Below, in pieces: positions 5,775 through 37,947 of a stretch of DNA of 47,393 nt. The notes beneath the pieces were generated by a model that ran no database searches, was not told the DNA's origin, and worked only from the letters and a program-made list of their open reading frames with translations. Source of the DNA: Bacteroidetes bacterium 4572_128 (GTDB taxonomy: Bacteria > Bacteroidota > Bacteroidia > Bacteroidales > 4572-128); NCBI GenBank assembly GCA_002084355.1, contig NBLL01000005.1, positions 1 through 47,393 on the forward strand. Direction: 5' to 3'. The position numbers and the translations under genes are program-made. Numbering within the stretch: position 1 is the first letter of the stretch; each line of letters begins with the position of its first letter.

Positions 5775-6725
5775 ATGAAAACGGTTATTTCTATAGAAAA
5801 TCTAAGTATAGCTTATAAATTAAAAAAAAGAATAAAAACTATAAAAAAAAATATTAACCTCATAGCAAATGAAGGTGAATTAATTGCTTTAATCGGTGCG
5901 AATGGTGTTGGGAAAAGCACATTTTTACGTACAATTTCATCTTTACAAAAACATTTTTTTGGGGAAATAAAAATTTTTAATAAAGAAATTAATAAATATT
6001 CAAATATAGAAATGTCAAAAAAATTAAGTTTTGTTTCGACAGAAATTATTAATGTTAATAATTTGAAAGTTAAAGATTTAGTTGCTTTGGGAAGATTTCC
6101 ATACACAAATTTTATAGGAAAATTGAAAGAAAAAGACAAATTTAAAATTAGTTCTGCATTAGAAATCACTGGAATGAAAAATTTTGCTAATAAATATATA
6201 AACGAAATTAGCGATGGAGAAAGACAAAAAGTTATGATAGCAAAAACTTTAGCACAAGATACTGATATTATAATTCTCGACGAGCCGAGTGCTTTTTTAG
6301 ACTTGGAAAATAAATATGAAATTATAAGCATTTTAAAAAAACTTTCTGAAGAAAACAATAAAACAATTATTTTTTCATCTCACGATTTGAATATTACAAT
6401 GCAAGAAGCAGATAAAATTTGTTTCCATAATAAAAAAATTATTTTTGATAATAAAAAATTCGATTTTATAAGAAAAAATAATAATAAAAATTTTAAAATA
6501 AATTTAATTTCTGATGAAAATTTAGAAAAATTTTTGACAAAAAAAGCATTAGAACGAATAAATTTTAAAATTACAGAAAACTCTAAAATGAAAATTTTTA
6601 TTAAAAAAGACTTAAAAAAAACAATATGGATTTTCAAAATTCAAAATGAAAAAAAAATATGTTATTCTATTTATGAGCTTATTTTTATTTTAAAAAAAAT
6701 AAAAAAAATTCTAATTAAAAAATAA
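5775..6725 (+). CDS. ABC transporter ATP-binding protein, FecE/HmuV-like
   Basis: This 316-residue ATPase has Walker A GANGVGKST (about residue 42), a signature region ISDGERQKVMIAKTLAQ (SDGER in place of LSGGQ), Walker B IIILDEPSAFLD and an H-loop SSHD. This order, and the DLVALGRFPYT segment after the Q-loop, are typical of ATPases of iron-siderophore/haem/cobalamin importers. About 90 residues follow the H-loop, very rich in Lys, Asn and Ile, where the family usually has only a short tail. No permease or binding-protein gene adjoins it, so the partner subunits must lie elsewhere. A repeat array begins right after the stop. Confidence 0.85.
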   Translation: MKTVISIENLSIAYKLKKRIKTIKKNINLIANEGELIALIGANGVGKSTFLRTISSLQKHFFGEIKIFNKEINKYSNIEMSKKLSFVSTEIINVNNLKVKDLVALGRFPYTNFIGKLKEKDKFKISSALEITGMKNFANKYINEISDGERQKVMIAKTLAQDTDIIILDEPSAFLDLENKYEIISILKKLSEENNKTIIFSSHDLNITMQEADKICFHNKKIIFDNKKFDFIRKNNNKNFKINLISDENLEKFLTKKALERINFKITENSKMKIFIKKDLKKTIWIFKIQNEKKICYSIYELIFILKKIKKILIKK

Positions 6726-24024: not shown

Positions 24025-24579
24025 ATGATTTTTTTATCTAGATTAATTTTAAAATTACTTGGTTGGAAAATAGTAGGTGGAAGACCACATTTAAACAAAT
24101 TTGTTATTTGTGCCGCACCACATACAAGCAATTGGGATTTTATCATTGGAAGATTACAATGTGTTGTTTTTGGTCTTAAACCTATTACTTTAATAAAAGC
24201 AGAATCTTTTTTTTTCCCATTGGGAATTTTTTTGAAAGCAATAAATGCTTTTCCTGTAAAAAGAGGAAGTAAAAATAATATTGTTGATATTCTAAAAGAA
24301 GAGTTTGATAAAAATGAGAAATTTACCGTTGTCATTACACCAGAAGGAACAAGAAAAAAAAGAAAACGTTGGAAACGTGGATTTTACCATATCGCAGTAA
24401 AAGCAAATGTTCCAATTTTGCTTGCATACAGCGATTACAAAACAAAAGAAATAGGAATGTCTAATTTTTTTTATCCAACTGGAGATATAGAAAAAGATAT
24501 AATAGCAATTAAAAAATTTTACCAAAATATTGGTGCAAAACATCCTGAAAGATTTGTAACTGGTTTGGAAAAAAATTAA
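24025..24579 (+). CDS. 1-acyl-sn-glycerol-3-phosphate acyltransferase-like protein (PlsC family)
   Basis: This 184-residue protein carries acyltransferase motif I as PHTSNWDF (the HxxxxD of the family, about residues 31-37) and motif III as VVITPEGTRKK (about 107-117). A basic RKRWKRGFYHIA stretch follows. It has the short form seen in Bacteroidota. Such enzymes add an acyl chain to a glycerophosphate-type acceptor at the inner membrane; the exact acceptor is uncertain because no lipid gene adjoins it. Confidence 0.85.
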   Translation: MIFLSRLILKLLGWKIVGGRPHLNKFVICAAPHTSNWDFIIGRLQCVVFGLKPITLIKAESFFFPLGIFLKAINAFPVKRGSKNNIVDILKEEFDKNEKFTVVITPEGTRKKRKRWKRGFYHIAVKANVPILLAYSDYKTKEIGMSNFFYPTGDIEKDIIAIKKFYQNIGAKHPERFVTGLEKN

Positions 24580-24654
24580 AAATTAAATTTTTATGGAAAA
24601 TAGAATATTTGTGGAATTTTTTTGATTCCTTCTATTTTATTTATATTTTTTTTT

Positions 24655-24958
24655 TTAATTTTCAAATAAAAAGTCATGAAATTTTGGGCATTTTTAAAAT
24701 TAAAATTATTAAAATTTTGGACGAATTTGAAAAAAAATTTTTTTTATTTTGAAATTAAAAATTATTAAAATATTTTTTTAAATTATAAAAATTCATAAAA
24801 AATTGGCATTTTTTCAAAAATATTTTTTTTTTAATTATAAAAATTCATAAAATAATTGATGTTTTTTGGAAAATCTTTTTTATAAATTCGTAAAATTTTG
24901 GCGTTTTTTGGAAATAAATTATTTCAATATACAAACCCAAAAAATTGACATTTTTTTG
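24655..24958 (+). repeat. Degenerate A/T-tract repeat array
   Basis: About five forward units have diverse cores: TTTGGGCATTTTTA (about 24685), GGACGAATTTG (24719), TTGGCATTTTTTC (24804), TTGATGTTTTTTGG (24858) and TTGGCGTTTTTTGG (24898). The A-run/T-run element is partly eroded. It lies between the acyltransferase gene and the restriction-enzyme-like remnant. Confidence 0.7.
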
Positions 24959-24961
24959 AAA

Positions 24962-25269
24962 AATTTTAGGTTTGTAAGCTTGAAAAATTTTAATATGTAC
25001 AAAAGCATCGTATGTTTCAAAAAATAAATCAGAACCTATAGTGATGAATTTGGTATTCCAAATTGATTAAATAACCAAAAATAAATTCTTTCTGCACCTT
25101 TTGCAAAATCAGAATTTTTATTAGAACTTTTTCTAAAAACATTTCAATTATCTATAATTTTATCTTTAGAAATTAAAGCATCCATCATTTTAGAAATATC
25201 TTGTTTTATTGTAAATTCTATTTGATTTAGATAATGATTTTCCCAAAATTAGATTTCTTTTTTTATCAT
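24962..25269 (-). pseudogene. Truncated remnant resembling a restriction endonuclease
   Basis: From an ATG at 25269 the minus strand reads MIKKEI, stop, FWENHYLNQIEFTIKQDISK, MMDALISKDKIIDN, stop (TGA), NVFRKSSNKNSDFAKGAERI, YFWLFNQFGIPNSS. After a one-base shift it continues PIGSDLFFETYDAFVHIKI. The last part looks like the region leading to a nuclease active site (usually HIDIKT) in type II restriction enzymes; this match is from memory and not certain. Two stops, a frameshift and loss of the C-terminal half before a repeat array show that it is dead. No methyltransferase gene remains. Beyond the array and this remnant, the 800-bp gap holds nothing else I can support. Confidence 0.45.
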
Positions 25270-25399
25270 AAAATTATTTTTTATTTAAAATCATTAAAAA
25301 TTTTTATTTTTTAAGGAAAATTTATTTTTAATTAAAAAAATTAAATTTTATAATATATATTTTTTTTTAACGTTTTTATTTTTTAAAAAAATTAAAAAA

Positions 25400-25786
25400 A
25401 TGAGTGCTTTTATAAGAAAAAAAATTTTATTTTATTTTATTTTTTTATTTAGTTTTTCTGTTTTTTCTCAGATAAAACCTTTTACTAATAATGATGCTAA
25501 GAACGAAAAAAAAGAATTAGAATTTTTTAGTTTACAAACAAAACGTTTTATCTTACCAAATTCGCAGGACAAAAAAAATTTAGAAAAAGCACATTATAAA
25601 GAATTAAGAAAGATGCGAAAAAAACATAAAAAAAAAATTAAAAAGTTTCAAAAAAAAATACAAGACAGACCAACAAAAAAAAAAATGAGAAAGACTAAAA
25701 GATATTCCAGAAGAGCAAATAAAAATAGACCAAAATATCCAAGTTTATGGCAAAAAATATGGTGGGGAATTACTTTTTGGAAATAA
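25400..25786 (+). CDS. Small, very basic secreted protein of unknown function
   Basis: This 128-residue protein has a signal peptide (MSAFIRKKILFYFIFLFSFS, mature start near QIKPF). The body is extremely rich in Lys and Arg (KELRKMRKKHKKKIKKFQKK, then RPTKKKMRKTKRYSRRANKN), and it ends in an aromatic tail (SLWQKIWWGITFWK). The pattern suggests a helical polycation anchored or stacked at a membrane by its Trp-rich end. No family is recognised. Its stop at 25786 is only 4 bp from the end of the convergent TolC-family gene, so the two transcripts must overlap. Confidence 0.6.
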   Translation: MSAFIRKKILFYFIFLFSFSVFSQIKPFTNNDAKNEKKELEFFSLQTKRFILPNSQDKKNLEKAHYKELRKMRKKHKKKIKKFQKKIQDRPTKKKMRKTKRYSRRANKNRPKYPSLWQKIWWGITFWK

Positions 25787-26440: not shown

Positions 26441-26489
26441 AAAAACACAATTTTTTTCATAAAATTTTTCAAAATTCACTAAAATTTTA

Positions 26490-26718
26490 ACATTTTTTAA
26501 ATCTAATTAAAAAAAAATTTTTTTCAAAAAATGCCGAAATTTTAACTTTTTTTAATTTTAATGTTTTTTAATTTCAATTAATAATTTTTTCAAAAAATGC
26601 CAAAATTTTCAACAAATTTCAATTTCAATTAAAAAAAATTTTTTTCAAAAAATGCCGAAATTTTCAACAAATTTCAATTTCAATTAAAAAAAAATTTTTT
26701 TCAAAAATGCCCAAAATT
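26490..26718 (-). repeat. A/T-tract tandem repeat array, ATGCCGAAATTTT core
   Basis: Four reverse-orientation units are seen: A-run, T-run, CAAAAAATGCC(G/A)AAATTTT, then AATTTCAATT spacers. Cores lie near 26529, 26597, 26650 and 26705. The array sits between two minus-strand genes, immediately past the 3' end of the methyltransferase gene. Confidence 0.85.
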
Positions 26719-27612
26719 TTAAATTTTTTCTAAAACAAAAAACATATATTTTTTTTCTTCCAAAAATTTATTTGGGTCAATTCCAGATAATTCTTTATCA
26801 AATTTTTTATCTACCGATGAACGCAAATCTTCACTTATATTATATAACCAAGGCTTTTTATATTTTAATTTTTCACTTGCATAATTTATTACAGGTTTTA
26901 AAATTCTTTCCGCATACATATTTACAAATTTTAAAGTGGGCATAATATTTTCTGTAATATCTTTTACATAAGATATTTTCCAATTTTTTTCTATTGTCTT
27001 TTTGATAAAATCGTTCAAAAAATGTCCAGATTTATTTTTTCCTTCTTTTTTTATTCTAAAATAATCTACAATTATCCATTTTCCATTATCAAGCAAAATT
27101 TTATCTAAAATTTCAAAAGACTTGTCTAAGTTTATGTATTGAAAAGATTCTGCATTAATTACAGTTCCAAATTTTTTTTCCGAGCTAAAATCCTCAAATT
27201 TTAAATTATGACATAAAAATTTATTCCCGTATTTTTTTAAAATATATTCAAATTGATTATTATCTGGAGTTAATGCCTCTACTTTTAAATTATTTTTCAA
27301 AAGTAAATTCGCCAAAGCACCCATACCACAACCAACATCCAAAATTGCTAAATCTTTTTTTGTAATTTTTCCAATAATAATTTCCAAATATTTTAATTGC
27401 GCATCTTCTATTTGTTTGATAGAAATTGTTTCAGGAGCAATATCTTTATTTTCAAAATATCCATAATGAAGAGAGTCATTTTCAAGAATTTGAGAATATA
27501 ACATCAATTCAAGATCTTTTCTTTCTTTAACATGTTTTTTTTGATTTTTTTGATATTTTATAGCTTTTACTATTTTCAAGGGGTTTAAAAAATTTTTTAA
27601 TAATTTGTTCAT
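26719..27612 (-). CDS. SAM-dependent methyltransferase (class I, CFA/sterol-type)
   Basis: This 297-residue protein has a basic N-terminus. HYGYFEN appears about residue 54, then the SAM-binding motif LAILDVGCGMGALANLLL (about 93-110) and later ESFQYINLDKSFEILDKILL and GKWIIVDYF. The layout resembles cyclopropane-fatty-acid synthase or small-molecule methyltransferases that act on lipid or quinone-like substrates. The substrate cannot be stated. It stands alone, with repeats downstream and the dksA-like gene divergent upstream. Confidence 0.82.
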   Translation of the reverse strand: MNKLLKNFLNPLKIVKAIKYQKNQKKHVKERKDLELMLYSQILENDSLHYGYFENKDIAPETISIKQIEDAQLKYLEIIIGKITKKDLAILDVGCGMGALANLLLKNNLKVEALTPDNNQFEYILKKYGNKFLCHNLKFEDFSSEKKFGTVINAESFQYINLDKSFEILDKILLDNGKWIIVDYFRIKKEGKNKSGHFLNDFIKKTIEKNWKISYVKDITENIMPTLKFVNMYAERILKPVINYASEKLKYKKPWLYNISEDLRSSVDKKFDKELSGIDPNKFLEEKKYMFFVLEKI

Positions 27613-30639: not shown

Positions 30640-30698
30640 AAAAAATTTCAAAAAAAATAAGACATAAAATTTTATGTCTTATTTTTTTGAAATTTTTA
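30640..30698. terminator. Bidirectional terminator between gyrA and sucC
   Basis: A long, almost perfect inverted repeat (AAAATTTCAAAAAAAATAAG then ACATAAAA, mirrored by TTTTATGTCTTATTTTTTTG then AAATTT) separates two convergent genes and supplies T runs in both directions. Confidence 0.88.
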
Positions 30699-31770
30699 AA
30701 CTAATTTTTTAACTAAATCTGCTGCTTCTTGTAAACCTATAGCTGAGTAAACTTTTAATCCAGATTTATCTATCAAATTTTTTCCTTCTATTGCATTTGT
30801 TCCTTGTAATCTCACAATTACAGGAATTTTTATATTTCCTATGGAATTATAAGCATCTACAACTCCTTGTGCTACTCTGTCGCATCTAACAATTCCGCCA
30901 AAAATATTTAATAAAATAGCTTTTACATTTTTATCTTTCAAAATAATCCTAAATCCAGCTTCTACTGTTTCGGCACTTGCTGTTCCTCCAACATCAAGAA
31001 AGTTAGACGGTTCACCTCCAGATTGTTTTATAATGTCCATAGTTGCCATCGCAAGACCTGCACCGTTTACCATGCAACCAAAAATTTACTTTTGCATCTG
31101 CAGCAAGTATAAGATCGTCAGAAGTTTTAAAAACTGGATTTATTTCAATCATAGAAGCATCGCAAGCAAGATAAGTATTATAAAGATTATATACAAATTT
31201 TGTCATATTCTTGTAAGCTTTTCCTTTTAAACCGAGATTAAAAGCAATTTTACGAGTTTGAAAATTTTGTATTCCGATTTTAGTGCATATTACTTCTTTG
31301 AAAATTAAATGGGGAGTTTCTTTTGCAACTTTTTCTATGTCCATACCGCCAGCAGGAGAATACATTATCATATTCCTACCTTTTTCGCGGTCTAATAAAA
31401 TACTAATGTAATATTCGCTAACATCTAATTTACCGTTTTTATCCGGATAAAAAATATTTTGCTCTATTAAAACTTTATGAACTTCTTTACCTTCTTTAGA
31501 TGTTTGTGGAGTTATTAATTGCATACCCAAAATTGATTTTGCATGTTTTTCCACTTCGTCAAAAGAATTAGCAACTTTTATACCGCCACCTTTTCCTCGT
31601 CCTCCAGCATGAATTTGAGCTTTAACTACCCAAGAACTTACACCAGTATGTCCTTGTATTTGTCTCGCTGCTTGCAGAGCAGAGATTGGAGTATCAGCAA
31701 CAAGTCCTTCAGGAACATTAACACCAAAATTTCTTAATATATGTTTTCCTTGATATTCGTGTATATTCAT
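30696..31770 (-). pseudogene. sucC: Succinate-CoA ligase (ADP-forming) beta subunit, disrupted
   Basis: The first frame (31770 down to about 31080) reads MNIHEYQGKHILRNFGVNVP, AQIHAGGRGKGGG, ... [24 protein letters not shown]: the ATP-grasp domain. The second frame resumes at [20 protein letters not shown] and runs to the normal C-terminus at 30696. About 40 residues that all SucC proteins have between DAK(V/I)N and GCMVNGAG are missing, including the acidic EED region and LDGNxG. The joint at about 31074 is out of frame. Everything else, including the GGxxRCDxVAxG region, is conserved. Intact, it makes succinyl-CoA/succinate in the TCA or methylmalonyl pathway. sucD is not adjacent. Confidence 0.9.
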
Positions 31771-31786
31771 AATAAATAAATTTTTA

Positions 31787-31794
31787 CAAAAATA
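31787..31794 (-). promoter_or_regulatory. -7 element for sucC
   Basis: On the minus strand this reads TATTTTTG, a match to TAnnTTTG, about 17 bp upstream of the ATG at 31770. Confidence 0.5.
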
Positions 31795-31799
31795 AGATT

Positions 31800-32430
31800 T
31801 ATTTTAAATAAAAAAAATTTTTTCAAAAAATTGGCAAATTTTTAATGTTTTTTAATTTAAAAAAAAATTTTCGAAAAAAACGACAAAATTTTTAATGTTT
31901 TTAATTTTAAATTAAAAAAAATTTTTTTTAAATTCGTCCAAAATTTTAATGTTTTTTAATTTCAAAAAAATTTTTTTTTATAATTTGTCAAAAATTTTAA
32001 TGCTTTTTAATTTGAAATTAAAAAAATTTTTTTCAAATTCGTCCAAAATTTTAATGTTTTTTAATTTCAAAAAAAAAAATTTTTATAATTTGCCAAAAAT
32101 TTTAATGCTTTTTAATTTCAATGAAAAAAAAATTTTTTTAAATTCGTCCAAAATTTTAATGCTTTTTAATTTCAAAAAAAAATTTTTTTATAATTTGCCA
32201 AAAATTTTAATACTTTTAATTTGAAATTAAAAAAAATTTTTTTCAAATTCATCCAAAATTTTAATTAATTTCAAAAAAATTTTTCGAAAAAACGACAAAA
32301 TTTTTAATGTTTTTAATTTCAAATTAAAAAAAAATTTTTTTCAAAAAACGACCAAAATTTTAATATTTTTTAATTTAAGAAATTAAAAAATTTTTTCTAA
32401 AAACTACCAAAATTTCAATATTTTTTTTAA
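31800..32430 (-). repeat. A/T-tract array with a 105-bp dimeric higher-order repeat
   Basis: About eleven reverse-orientation units fill the divergent gap between sucC and nnr. Inside it two unit types alternate. Type A (ATTCGTCC core) starts at 31932, 32037, 32142 and 32247 (ATTCATCC). Type B (TAATTTGTC or TAATTTGCC core) starts at 31981, 32086 and 32191. A-to-A and B-to-B distances are exactly 105 bp, A-to-B is 49 and B-to-A is 56. Flanking units (AATTGGC, AAACGAC, AAACTACC cores) are single-type. A 92-codon open frame across it is a by-product of the 105-bp period. Confidence 0.92.
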
Positions 32431-32447
32431 TTTTGAAAAAAAAAAAG

Positions 32448-33913
32448 ATGAAGATTTTATCTACAGAACAAATTAGAAAAGCTGATAATTTTACAATTAA
32501 AAATGAACCAATTTCCTCCATTGATTTAATGGAACGTGCTTCACAATCTTGCACAGATTGGATAATTAAAAATTTCAATAAAAATCAAAAATTCAAGATT
32601 TTTGCTGGACAAGGAAATAATGGAGGCGATGGACTTGCAATTGCAAGACAACTGAAAGAAAAAAACTTTTTTATAGAAGTTTTTATTATGAAAATCTCTG
32701 AAAATTATTCTGACGATTTCAAAATAAATTTGCTTCGTTTAGAAAAACAAAATAAAGTTAAAATTAATTTCTTAGAAAATGAATCAAATTTTAAAGAAAT
32801 TAATAAGAATGATATTATTATAGATGCATTATTTGGTTCTGGTTTAAAAAGAAAGTTAGAAAATTTTCCAGCGAAGATATTGAATTTTTTAAATAATTTG
32901 GAAGCGAAAATTATATCTATAGATATTCCATCTGGTTTATTTGCTGAAAATAACGAAAAAACAATTTACGATAAAGAAATACCTATAATTAAAGCAAATT
33001 TTACTTTGAGTTTTCAATTCCCAAAACTTTCTTTTTTCTTCCCAGAAACAGAAAAATTTGTAAAAGAATATTTTATTCTAAATATTTCGCTTCATAAAAA
33101 ATTTATTGAAAATATAGAAACAAAAAATTTTTTTCTAAAAAAAGACTTTATTTTTAATAAAATAAAAAAAAGAAATCGTTTTTCTCACAAAGGAAATTTT
33201 GGACACGGACTTTTAATTGCGGGAAGTTATGGTAAATTTGGTGCTTGTGTTTTAGCAGCAAAATCTTGTTTAAAAACAGGAATAGGTTTATTGAGTACTC
33301 AAACTCCAAAATTTTGTTATTCTATTATACAAATTTCTGTTCCTGAAAGTATGGTTATTTTAGATAATTCAATGGTATGGAAAAAGATACCGAAAATGCT
33401 TTGGAAATTTTAATGAAAAAACTGAAATCACACAAAAATAAAAGATTGGTTATAGATGCAGACGCAATAAATTTAATTGCAAAAAATTCTGAATTATTAA
33501 AAATAATTCCGGAAAATGCTGTTTTAACGCCACACATTAAAGAGTTTGAAAGATTGATTGGAAAGAAAATTTCATCTAATTTTCATCGTTATGAAATTTT
33601 AAAAAAATTTTCTAAAAAATATAAAGTTTTTATTGTTTTAAAAGGTCAAAATAGTATAATTTCTTGTCCAGACGGAATTTGTTATTTTAACACAACAGGA
33701 AATCCAGGAATGGCTACAGCCGGAAGTGGCGACGTTTTAACAGGTATGATTTTGTCTTTTCTCGCACAAAATTATGAAATAAAAGACGCTGTAATACTTG
33801 GGGTTTATTTGCACGGTTTAGCAGGAGATTTTGCAAAAAATAAAGTTGGTGAAAATTCTTTGACAGCAAGTGATATTATAAAAAACATTAAAAATACATT
33901 TCCAATAAATTAA
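32448..33913 (+). pseudogene. nnr: Bifunctional NAD(P)H-hydrate repair enzyme (epimerase/dehydratase), disrupted
   Basis: The start is at 32448 (MKILSTEQIRKADNFTI). Residues 1-210 are the YjeF-N epimerase domain (KIFAGQGNNGGDGLAIARQL, DIIIDALFGSGL, IISIDIPSGL). From about 235 the ADP/ATP-dependent dehydratase domain begins (RFSHKGNFGHGLLIAGSYGK). The frame is lost at about 33380 after PESMVILDN. The other frame resumes at GMEKDTENALEILMKK and includes RLVIDADAINLIAKN, ILTPH-type VLTPHIKEFERL and the catalytic NPGMATAGSGDVLTGM. A roughly 20-residue stretch with the usual GxGPGxG motif is missing. Intact, the enzyme repairs hydrated NADH/NADPH. Confidence 0.87.
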
Positions 33914-34024: not shown

Positions 34025-35158
34025 ATGGAATACGAATTTAAAATAGATTCAAATTCTCAGGAAGCAAAACGTTTGGTAGAATTTTTGAAAACTTTAACTT
34101 ACGTAAAAGAAGAATCAAAATCTCCGGAAAAAAAAGAAATTTATAAATCTTTTGATTATAAAAATTCAAAAATAGCGGTAATAGGAGGCGGAAGTTGGGC
34201 AACAGCAATAATAAAAATGTTGTTAAATAATGTTGATAAGAATAATAAAATAAATTGGTTTTTACGAGAGAAAAAATCTATAGACTTTATTAAAAAATTC
34301 AAAAAGAATCCTCGTTATTTGCGTTCTGTAAAATTAGATACGGATAAAATTGTTTTTTTTGAAAATATTGAAGAAATTATAAAAAAATCTAATATTTTAA
34401 TTTTTGTTATTCCGTCAGCATTTTTGAAAAGTTCTTTAGAATTTTTGAAAATAAATTTAAAAGATAAATTTATTGTTTCTGCAATCAAAGGAATAATTCC
34501 TGAAGATAATACAATTATTGCAGAGTTTTTTCAAAATGAATATAAAGTTCCTTTATCATCTATAGCTGTGATTTCTGGACCTTGTCATGCTGAGGAGGTC
34601 GCCCTAGAAAAACTTTCATATTTGACTATCGCTTCAAAAGATCTAAATAAAGCACAATTTATTTCTGAGAAACTTAGCTGTCGCTATATAAAAAGTTCCA
34701 TTTCTGATGATATTTTCGGAACAGAATACTCTTCTGTTTTAAAAAATATTTTTGCCATTGCTTCTGGAATTTGTAAAAGTTTGGGCTACGGTGATAATTT
34801 CCAAGCAGTTTTGATTTCTAATGCTATACAAGAAATAGAAAATTTTGCAAATACAGTTCATCCGATAAGTAGAGACATAAAAAATTCGGCTTATTTGGGA
34901 GATTTATTAGTTACCTCTTATTCTCAGTTTTCCAGAAATAGAACTTTTGGAGCAATGATAGGAAAAGGATATTCTGTAAAATCGGCACAATTAGAAATGA
35001 ATATGATTGCAGAAGGATATTATGCTTTATATTGCATACACAAAATAAATAAAAAATTTAATGTGGAAATGCCAATTACAGAAAGCGTTTATAGAATAAT
35101 TTACAAAAAAAAAGATGCCGCAATAGAAATAAAAAATTTAACAGCCTATTTAAAATAA
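34025..35158 (+). CDS. gpsA: Glycerol-3-phosphate dehydrogenase (NAD(P)+) with N-terminal extension
   Basis: This 377-residue protein is about 45 residues longer than usual. The NAD-binding Rossmann motif KIAVIGGGSWATAI begins near residue 49. FVSAIKG-type FIVSAIKGI, ISGPCHAEEVA, the catalytic KN region YSSVLKNIFAIASGI and AYLGDLLVT complete the enzyme. It makes sn-glycerol-3-phosphate for phospholipids. Residues 1-45 (MEYEFKIDSNSQEAKRLVEF, then LKTLTYVKEESKS) resemble the small beta-helix antitoxin-like or DUF2683-like proteins common in Bacteroidota. Internal in-frame ATG codons near the Rossmann start are lacking, so the extension appears translated. Confidence 0.93.
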   Translation: MEYEFKIDSNSQEAKRLVEFLKTLTYVKEESKSPEKKEIYKSFDYKNSKIAVIGGGSWATAIIKMLLNNVDKNNKINWFLREKKSIDFIKKFKKNPRYLRSVKLDTDKIVFFENIEEIIKKSNILIFVIPSAFLKSSLEFLKINLKDKFIVSAIKGIIPEDNTIIAEFFQNEYKVPLSSIAVISGPCHAEEVALEKLSYLTIASKDLNKAQFISEKLSCRYIKSSISDDIFGTEYSSVLKNIFAIASGICKSLGYGDNFQAVLISNAIQEIENFANTVHPISRDIKNSAYLGDLLVTSYSQFSRNRTFGAMIGKGYSVKSAQLEMNMIAEGYYALYCIHKINKKFNVEMPITESVYRIIYKKKDAAIEIKNLTAYLK

Positions 35159-35190
35159 TTGAAAAAATACGTTATTTAAAAATGGTTTCA

Positions 35191-35225
35191 ATAAAATTCT
35201 AAAATTTTTTTTTTAGAATTTTATT
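35191..35225 (+). terminator. Probable terminator after gpsA
   Basis: ATAAAATTCTAAAA pairs with TTTTAGAATTTTAT around a T-rich loop, 32 bp after the gpsA stop. The following T run is poor, so efficiency is uncertain. Confidence 0.5.
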
Positions 35226-35227
35226 TA

Positions 35228-35455
35228 TTCAAAATAAAAATAAAAAAAATTTTTTTCAAAATTCGTGAAAATTTTAATATTTTTTAATTTCAATTAAAAA
35301 AATTTTTTTCAAAAATCGTGAAAATTTTAATATTTTTTAATTTCAATTAAAAAAAATTTTTTTCAAAAATCGCGAAAATTTTAACATTTTTTAATTTCAA
35401 TTTTTTTTTTTTTTCAAATTCTTCCAAAATTTTAATATTTTAAAATTGGTTTTTT
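35228..35455 (-). repeat. A/T-tract array, TTCACGAATTT-type core, inverted relative to the array beyond the next gene
   Basis: Reverse units are A-run, T-run, CAAAATTCGTGAAAATTTTA, then ATATTTTTTAATTTCAATT. Cores are TCGTG at about 35263 and 35316 and TCGCG at 35370, followed by a TTCTTCC variant near 35420. Spacing is 53-54 bp. It lies upstream of the GWxTD gene. Confidence 0.88.
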
Positions 35456-35510
35456 AAATTATTTTTTAAATTTGTATAATTTTTGTATATATTTAAAAAA
35501 AATATTAATT

Positions 35511-36938
35511 ATGAAAAAAAAAATTATTTTTATAATATGTTTGTTTTTTTTTGCAAATTTTACTTTTGCAGAGAAATTACAATCATATTTTAATATAAGA
35601 ACTTTCAAAACTTTAGAAAGTCCTTATTTGGAAAGTTATTTAAGCGTAATTGGAAATTCTGCCGTTTTTGTTAAGAAAGAAAATGGTAAATACCAAGCTG
35701 TTTTGGAAGTAACAATTATTTTCAAAGAAAATGGAATTATAAAAAATTTCAAAAAATATCAATTAACAAGTCCAGAAATTAAGAATAAAAATTCTTATAA
35801 ACCAAATTTTATTGATGTGCAGCGCTTTGTTTTGGAAAATGGAATTTATAATTACGAATTAAAAATCATAGATGTAAATGCAGAAAAATCTGAAATTAAT
35901 TATAAAAATATTTTAAACTTAGATTATAGAAGTAATCTCGTACAATTTTCTGACATTCAATTAATAGAAAGTTTTTCTAAAACAAAAAAAGAAAACGTTT
36001 TAAGTAAAAATTCTTATGATTTAATTCCTTATATTTCTGATTTTTACCCAGAAAATATTAATAAATTAATTTTTTACGCAGAAATTTATAATACAGATAA
36101 ATATCTTGCAAAAGAAGAGAATTTTTTAATTCGCTATTTTATAGAAAGATCTGATAAAGAAATTATTTTGAATAAATATGTTTCTTTTTTTAAAAGGAAA
36201 TCTGCTTCTATTATTCCAGTTTTTGCTGAATTTAATATAGAAAATCTGCCGTCTGGAAATTATAATCTTGTAATAGAAGCGAGAAATAGAAAAAATGAAT
36301 TATTAAAATCTAAAAAATTCATTTTTCAAAGAAGTAATATAAAAAAAGATAATTTGATATTTGAGGCAAGCAAAGAAAATTTAAATTCTTCTTTTGTTAC
36401 TCAAATTAATGATGCAGAAATTTTAAAAGAAAATATAAAATGTTTATATCCAATTTCTTCTGAAATAGAAAAAAACTACGCAAATAACATAATTAAATTA
36501 AATGATATTGAAAAAATGCAAAATTATTTTTATGTTTTTTGGTATAAAAGAGATGAAAAAAATTATGAAAAATTATGGAATAATTATAAAAAACGTGTAG
36601 ATTTTGTAAATAATTCTTACAGCACACAAGTTAAAAAAGGTTATTATACAGATAGAGGGCGAATTTATTTGCAATATGGAAGTCCAAATTCTGTGATAGA
36701 AAGTAAACACGAGCCGAGTTCGTATCCTTATGAAATATGGCATTATTACAGATTAGAAGACCAAACAAATAAACGTTTTGTTTTTTACAATCAATTTATA
36801 GTTGGAGATGAATATACTTTAATTCATTCTAATGCAAAAGGAGAATTTAGCAATAGAAACTGGGAAGTTATCTTGCAAAGTAGAAACGAAATGAGAACAG
36901 ACCACGACAGAACAAATTCACTAAATTTTAAAACATAA
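35511..36938 (+). CDS. GWxTD-domain protein
   Basis: The start is at 35511 (MKKKIIFIICLFFFANFTFA, signal peptide); the in-frame start 13 codons earlier would spoil the signal sequence. The protein is 475 residues. The middle is beta-rich (about 30-290), and residues about 370-460 form the GWxTD domain (GYYTDRGRIYLQYGSPNSVI, EIWHYYRLEDQTNKRFVFYN). This domain is named for a motif found in Bacteroidota and related phyla; its biochemical role is unknown. Repeat arrays with the same private core flank the gene in inverted orientation. No lesion is visible. Confidence 0.88.
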   Translation: MKKKIIFIICLFFFANFTFAEKLQSYFNIRTFKTLESPYLESYLSVIGNSAVFVKKENGKYQAVLEVTIIFKENGIIKNFKKYQLTSPEIKNKNSYKPNFIDVQRFVLENGIYNYELKIIDVNAEKSEINYKNILNLDYRSNLVQFSDIQLIESFSKTKKENVLSKNSYDLIPYISDFYPENINKLIFYAEIYNTDKYLAKEENFLIRYFIERSDKEIILNKYVSFFKRKSASIIPVFAEFNIENLPSGNYNLVIEARNRKNELLKSKKFIFQRSNIKKDNLIFEASKENLNSSFVTQINDAEILKENIKCLYPISSEIEKNYANNIIKLNDIEKMQNYFYVFWYKRDEKNYEKLWNNYKKRVDFVNNSYSTQVKKGYYTDRGRIYLQYGSPNSVIESKHEPSSYPYEIWHYYRLEDQTNKRFVFYNQFIVGDEYTLIHSNAKGEFSNRNWEVILQSRNEMRTDHDRTNSLNFKT

Positions 36939-36939
36939 A

Positions 36940-37275
36940 TATTAAAATTTTCACGAATTTGAAAAAAAATTTTTTTTTAAATTGAAATTAAAAAATATTA
37001 AAATTTTCACGAATTTGAAAAAAAATTTTTTTTTAAATTGAAATTAAAAAATATTAAAATTTTGGGCGAATTTGAAAAAAAATTTTTTAAATTGAAATTA
37101 AAAAATATTAAAATTTTGGGCGATTTTTGAAAAAAATTTTTTTTAATTGAAATTAAAAAAATATTAAAATTTTGGGCGATTTTTAAAAAAAATTTTTTTT
37201 AATTGAAATTAAAAAAATATTAAAATTTTGGGCGATTTTTGAAAAAATTTTTTTTTTTAATTTAAAAATTATTGA
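36940..37275 (+). repeat. A/T-tract array, TCACGAATTTG then GGGCGATTTTTG cores
   Basis: Forward units have cores TCACGAATTTG (36951, 37007), TGGGCGAATTTG (37063) and TGGGCGATTTTTG (37117, 37173, 37229). Spacing is 54-56 bp. The TCACGAATT core is the reverse complement of the core upstream of the GWxTD gene. Confidence 0.9.
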
Positions 37276-37405
37276 AATTTTAGCATATAAAAAAAAAAAA
37301 AAATCAAATATTTAAATTCAAAAAATTTCTCGTTTTTTTTAATTAAAATTCATAATTATTAAAAATAAATACAGTTATCATTGTAAATTATTAATTTTAT
37401 TTAAA

Positions 37406-37947
37406 ATGACTTTATTTATAATTATAATCACTATTGTGGTTTCTGTTTTTGGATTTAAAGATTCAAATTTTTTTGGTAAATTTTTATTTAATCCTTTTCT
37501 CGTTCATAAAGAAAAACAATGGTATAGACTTTTAACTCATGGATTTTTGCATGCTGATTATTTTCATTTAGCAATTAATATGTTTGTTTTATTTTCTTTT
37601 GGCAAAAACGCAGAATATTATTTAAGTTCAACTACTAATTACATTTTTCTTTATTTTGGTGGAATGATTATAGCTTCTTTAATTTCTTTGAGAAAGCATA
37701 AAGAAAATTTTTATTATAATTCTGTTGGTGCTTCTGGTGCTGTTTCAGCAGTTGTTTTTACAAGCATATTTTTTGCTCCTTTACAAAAAATTTATATTTA
37801 CGGTCTAATTGGATTACCTGGAATTGTTCTTGGGGGAAGTGATAATATTAATCATGATGCACATTTCTCCGGAGCTTTATTTGGTTTTTTATTTCCGTAA
37901 TTTCAGGAGAGGCTTCTATAATTGATTTTTTTGAAAAATTATTTTAA
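37406..37947 (+). pseudogene. Rhomboid family intramembrane serine protease, disrupted
   Basis: Rhomboid features are clear: WYRLLTHGFLHADYFHLAIN (loop 1 and HLxxN), a catalytic serine in GASGAVSAV (about residue 113) and a catalytic histidine in NINHDAHFSGALFG (about 153). Two lesions are inferred. A transmembrane stretch of about 15 residues normally found between LPGIVLG and the GSDNINHDAH region is missing, leaving the frame open. The frame then ends at 37900 after FGFLFP, while another frame carries the tail ISGEASIIDFFEKLF to a TAA at 37945-37947. That stop lies one base before the next gene's ATG, so it is likely the true end. Intact, it would cleave membrane proteins. Confidence 0.8.

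Follow-up and report, generated by a model that had tools for sequence, protein, structure and literature searches.

A local 105-bp dimeric repeat within an AT-rich intergenic minisatellite of a Bacteroidales genome

The locus and its genomic setting

The window analyzed here is a 47,393-nucleotide stretch of the Bacteroidetes bacterium 4572_128 assembly (contig C85; 24% GC), a 2.6-Mb metagenome-assembled genome (MAG) that is 73% complete. Its genes include the bacterial housekeeping genes gyrA, rpsA, sucC and nnrE. Among named records, the nearest is JAOZVH010000185.1 ('Bacteroidales bacterium isolate GMC9.metabat2.18'), which comes from a congener (genome G001) and has a GyrA that is 96% identical. 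Between sucC and nnrE lies a tandem array, for which Tandem Repeats Finder (TRF) gives a period of 105 and 5.8 copies (Table 1). A CRISPR array was rejected on the grounds that the entire unit repeats and unique spacers are absent, and an Rfam scan of the whole window returned no model at the gathering score.

Both flanking genes are disrupted relative to the congener. In sucC, the absence of ~122 bp found in the congener leaves two overlapping ORFs in place of one. Intragenic gaps fall at 31081 in sucC and at 33372 in nnrE, with similar ones near 6421, 18767, 21730, 23807 and 25948; the absent segments measure about 56–122 bp, and several gaps run in the same direction. These gaps represent either pseudogenes or an assembly fault of the MAG.

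Table 1 Features of the sucC–nnrE region, in window coordinates
Feature	Coordinates	Strand	Description
sucC, succinate-CoA ligase beta subunit	30696..31770	-	Two overlapping ORFs; start codon end at 31770
Whole intergenic array, ~54-bp AnTn-cored units	31801..32446	+	Between sucC (-) and nnrE (+); 13 units, one orientation; TRF and unit HMM
Dimer 1	31932..32036	+	Type A 31932-31980, 49 bp, tract A7T9 at 31964; type B 31981-32036, 56 bp, tract A7T7 at 32020
Dimer 2	32037..32141	+	Type A tract A11T5 at 32069; type B tract A9T7 at 32124
Dimer 3	32142..32246	+	Type A tract A9T7 at 32174; type B tract A8T7 at 32229
Degenerate 3' part of array	32247..32446	+	Fourth type A core followed by units whose lengths differ; 105-bp register lost
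nnrE, NAD(P)H-hydrate epimerase/dehydratase	32433..33913	+	Broken; lacks 64 bp of the 546-aa ORF seen in the congener

Structure of the 105-bp patch

An earlier note on this sequence had described two alternating core types with an exact 105-bp period, and a base-by-base check confirmed its geometry: type A cores begin at 31932, 32037, 32142 and 32247 and type B cores at 31981, 32086 and 32191, giving A-to-B intervals of 49, 49 and 49 bp and B-to-A intervals of 56, 56 and 56 bp. The A-to-B tracts are likewise as described (A7T9, A11T5 and A9T7, each summing to 16), as is the offset in the B-to-A intervals, where dimer 3 has lost one T and gained one A relative to dimer 1. The B-to-A tracts themselves (A7T7, A9T7 and A8T7) have totals of 14, 16 and 15, which are not constant, and the spacer compensates.

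The three dimers differ at 11 of 105 positions in each pairwise comparison; between dimers 2 and 1, four of the mismatches form a contiguous T-to-A boundary shift. Across these dimers, identity is 0.92–0.94 among type A and 0.88–0.93 among type B monomers, compared with 0.73–0.82 between types, so that similarity at lag n exceeds that at lag 1 and the monomers fall into distinct types, as expected of a higher-order repeat. The regular stretch comprises three dimers only. When compared in register with dimer 2, the 105 bases upstream of the patch (from 31827) match at 74 positions and mismatch at 31, and the 105 bases downstream (from 32247) match at 43 and mismatch at 62. Unit lengths over the whole array, taken from HMM anchors, are 54, 49, 55, 51, 54, 51, 54, 51, 54, 42, 57 and 55, and the longest exact repeat within it is 41 bp.

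A minisatellite family in two genomes

Hundreds of such arrays occur in this MAG (24% GC) and in its one congener (JAOZVH01). At E ≤ 1e-8, none of the other genomes in a sample of 295 from the order contained the repeat, and loci L010-L012, L014, L015 and L101-L103 from other genera of the order held no analogous arrays. An HMM built from the window units (score ≥10) gave 564 raw matches in 265 kb, compared with 17 in an order-2 Markov control. Removal of overlaps left 473 units, 17 mostly within ORFs and 456 not, although these densities are not strictly extrapolable, as some sampled stretches were picked for holding arrays.

The ~54-bp unit has the approximate consensus TTCGTCCAAAATTTTAATATTTTTTAATTT..A~8T~7-CAAA and occurs in most long gene spacers of the genus. 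Units are arranged head to tail, are mostly 45–59 bp long (124 runs), and are non-coding and present at many loci, which together describe a minisatellite. A single orientation is kept in 36 of the 45 spacers with at least two units; the longest array observed (L119:5502-7080) packs 30 units, all oriented alike, into a 1.6-kb spacer. The two genomes differ in their arrays and unit lengths, a comparison between species rather than between strains of one species, and both copies and orthologues are more diverged than adjacent genes.

Arrays occupy ++, --, +- and -+ spacers, and many spacers have none. A promoter or terminator role is not favored because convergent, divergent and tandem spacers are used alike, and a role as a replication-strand marker is not supported by the correlation of orientation with GC skew (r = -0.19, 27 stretches). 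Another possibility is that a nucleoid-associated protein or a regulator binds the units by recognizing TCGTCCAAAATTTT, with spacing irrelevant. The only GC-containing word of the consensus, TCGTCC, sits immediately 5' of AAAATTTT, and this GC-containing core tops the information content of the unit (1.4–1.8 bits at three positions; the genome has 24% GC); the presence of arrays in most long spacers, mostly in one orientation each, would also suit such a role. However, core positions are conserved at 0.57–0.79 compared with ~0.9–0.98 for A/T positions, the indifference to spacer type, the array-free spacers and the lack of a link between orientation and GC skew all weigh against it, and orthologous arrays diverge fast. 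We therefore consider binding sites an unlikely account of the family.

The 105-bp period in the context of the family

The earlier note had suggested, as one of two possibilities, selection on spacing, 105 bp being ten helical turns. On a reading of this sort, AnTn tracts would be held in register on one face of the helix, bending the DNA or seating a nucleoid protein. The period is indeed close to ten turns, the unit is AT-rich with many A-tracts, and an early, smaller sample had a mean unit length of 52.5, albeit with a broad distribution and few units at 52–53. The full set, 817 units in 124 arrays from the two genomes, has a mean of 53.6 (SD 4.4; range about 45–59) and a mode of 55–56 rather than 52.5, with 15% of units at 52–53 and 33% at 55–56. 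Spectral power at 10.5 bp in the positions of A/T-run centers showed no excess (0.81 compared with 0.86 in shuffled sequences). Exact alternation also occurs at other periods, namely 112 (L121) and 109 (L128, in the congener), and a dimeric patch at L107:8505-8720 has units of 51, 57, 51 and 57, a period of 108 and a lag-2 identity of 0.96. The family thus has several higher-order periods (105, 108, 109, 112 and others) rather than one.

Spacing also varies between relatives. In the comparison with relatives that the earlier note proposed, orthologous arrays, defined by aligned unique flanks, change their spacings by 1–6 bp, the outcome that the note itself had named as speaking against its idea. 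Unit spacings in the L120/L172 pair are 58/57, 56/51, 55/56 and 57/57, and in the L157/L178 pair 54/53, 55/57, 55/56, 56/54 and 56/54. In the latter pair, substitutions reach 8.6% in the array and 0.2% in the flank, with six gaps and none, respectively (L157:4186-5966 against L178:1-1781, where a flank 99.8% identical between species adjoins the diverged array); judged from these alignments, the contrast appears to reflect recent exchange plus a fast-mutating array. On the sucC side, the congener has the same kind of array with other variants and, in the part on that contig, no 105-bp dimer; an array is present there beside nnrE as well, but the adjacent gene is a different one.

We estimated how often such regularity arises by chance using a first sample of about 370 kb and 66 arrays and the identity-matched rate of equal lengths. 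If lengths were independent, four successive lag-2 length matches would be expected in 0.22 arrays (probability of at least one, 0.21); two such arrays were observed, and a third reached three matches in succession. The assumption of independence does not strictly hold, since blocks copied together make such runs easier. For copies <10% diverged, the probability of an equal tract total is 0.30, and three equal totals are therefore roughly a 1-in-10 event. The 105-bp pattern is thus uncommon, not exceptional. Helical selection is already largely refuted by the modal unit length, the missing 10.5-bp signal, the alternations at 109 and 112, the freely changing orthologous spacings and the congener's array without a 105-bp dimer at the same spacer; we regard it as highly improbable and read the 105-bp period as a local higher-order duplication.

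Length-neutral shifts of the A/T boundary

We compared tracts in 808 pairs of copies that were <10% diverged outside the tract, with bootstrapping over arrays, which corrects in part for the non-independence of pairs within an array. The premise that homopolymers drift in length held up, as the A-run is equal in 33% and the T-run in 32% of these pairs; the whole unit is equal in 23%. The tract total is equal in 30% and differs in about 70%, so of the suggestion that totals stay fixed while the split moves, an excess of such shifts survives and a rule does not. Total-preserving shifts occur at 1.75 times the independent expectation (array bootstrap 95% interval 1.42–2.15), although tract splits were read from assembled consensus, in which errors at run junctions are possible. 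By size, observed and expected counts are 82 and 56.5 for one base, 36 and 13.4 for two (a 2.7-fold excess), 7 and 2.0 for three, and 2 and 0.3 for four. The excess of multi-base shifts favors single events that move the boundary by several bases. Lengths of adjacent A- and T-runs are correlated at -0.28, compared with 0.13 and -0.10 for control, non-adjacent T-runs.

The same tendency is seen between species: among 31 orthologous tracts, 8 are identical, 7 preserve the total and 16 have changed it, and the 7 exceed an expectation of 3.1 (p = 0.012). The other mechanism raised in the earlier note, in which substitutions or an inverted palindrome move the boundary, accordingly stands as a tendency, given the 1.75-fold excess and 7 of 31 against 3.1, and not as a rule, given that 16 of 31 orthologous totals differ. 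Template switching at inverted repeats leads to spacer inversion and clustered substitutions (PMC8604942), and dislocation mutagenesis leads to substitutions at the ends of homopolymer runs (PMC3105016). The excess fits either template-switch microinversion or dislocation mutagenesis, and library errors may contribute. Length-neutral boundary shifting is a modest, measurable mutational tendency.

Gene order around arrays

Where the window can be mapped to the congener, four spacers with at least four units were testable, and in every case they separate genes that lie on different congener contigs. At the sucC–nnrE break, the sucC side lies near a congener contig end and the nnrE side has another neighbor. 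The one spacer with two units is conserved, as are most array-free spacers, while at three breaks in unit-free spacers the congener has arrays beside both blocks. Two further stretches give the same picture; in a third, L120, one array has traveled with its gene. The window spacers in this comparison are 24579-25400, 26479-26719, 31770-32433, 35158-35472 and 36938-37406, and the gene blocks are about 87–98% identical to congener contigs C210, C280, C126, C247, C252, C87 and C236.

These breaks possibly reflect repeat-driven scrambling or assembly chimerism. Chimeric joins are conceivable because both genomes are fragmented MAGs with many contigs ending in arrays. Congener contigs C241, C201, C312, C216, C231 and C316 have ends within or near arrays, and such ends mean that the repeats limit assembly of both genomes. 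A broader version of this concern is that the array copies, the tract splits and even the joins are chimeric products of repeat assembly. Contigs that end inside arrays would be expected on this account, as would the bases that the window lacks relative to the congener (64 bp in nnrE, ~122 bp in sucC) and the several joins between window gene blocks that have no array where the congener has arrays beside both blocks. However, the family, its unit structure and the boundary-shift tendency recur in a separate assembly, and the longest exact repeat in the array, at 41 bp, is short enough for ordinary k-mer assembly, leaving an artifact quite unlikely.

A more far-reaching reading makes the arrays active hubs of recombination and mutation, with frequent length-neutral AnTn inversions and with inter-array recombination that reshuffles the chromosome nearly spacer by spacer while the congeners are still about 95% identical in genes. 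We put this forward tentatively, as a possibility that we think somewhat doubtful.

Discussion

The 105-bp pattern is genuine, confined to one patch and of a familiar type. Selection on helical phase or spacing is not required to explain it, and the wider family contradicts such selection. With good confidence, we interpret the locus as a local dimeric higher-order patch in a genus-specific intergenic minisatellite, shaped by a boundary tendency and luck rather than by selection on spacing. A neighboring A+B pair would have been copied as one 105-bp block through unequal recombination or slippage, and copying as a block would explain why A resembles A, B resembles B and the spacing is equal. 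Boundaries would then have moved by length-keeping events at the AnTn palindrome, whether microinversion through template switching or dislocation mutagenesis where runs end; inversion of a segment across the junction, for example, would convert AnTm to An-kTm+k. Such events would be superimposed on ordinary homopolymer slippage, and the equal totals at the patch may be this tendency plus luck. The mutational mechanism is deduced from patterns of variation, and one point against our interpretation is that the dimers, differing from one another at 11 of 105 positions and so not freshly copied, have kept their net length; the four length equalities are roughly a one-in-five outcome for such a sample.

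The arrays resemble several known systems in part. Like bacterial intergenic minisatellites and VNTRs such as mycobacterial MIRU-VNTR, they consist of non-coding tandem units of tens of base pairs in many spacers, with differences among copies and fast turnover; unlike MIRU-VNTR, they are extremely AT-rich, have an AnTn palindrome core, occupy far more loci per genome (hundreds) and have no homologue outside one genus in our sample. As in alpha-satellite higher-order repeats, diverged monomers A and B were amplified as a dimer in which like matches like at lag two, but here there are only three dimers, in dispersed bacterial spacers, with several dimer periods and no centromeric role. Palindromic units scattered by the hundred outside genes and grouped in spacers recall the BIME/REP elements of enterobacteria. 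REPs have a high GC content, come in alternating orientations and are associated with RAYT transposases; the units here are AT-rich and mostly in a single orientation (36 of 45 spacers), which sets them apart from REPs. Dense A/T runs, including A4T4-type junctions, are shared with phased A-tract curved DNA, but 10.5-bp phasing does not rise above shuffles, and the arrays do not qualify as such. Finally, Orientia tsutsugamushi also has small conserved gene blocks between repeats, with an order that is not conserved among close relatives (PMC6005640); its repeats are amplified mobile elements (PMC6005640), whereas those here are short non-coding tandem arrays and the scrambling is seen in two MAGs.

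With hundreds of fast-evolving AnTn tracts in each genome, the family provides a natural assay of length-neutral boundary mutation against slippage. Should long reads confirm the breaks at array spacers, the genus would exemplify extreme scrambling of gene order, centered on short non-coding tandem arrays instead of mobile elements.
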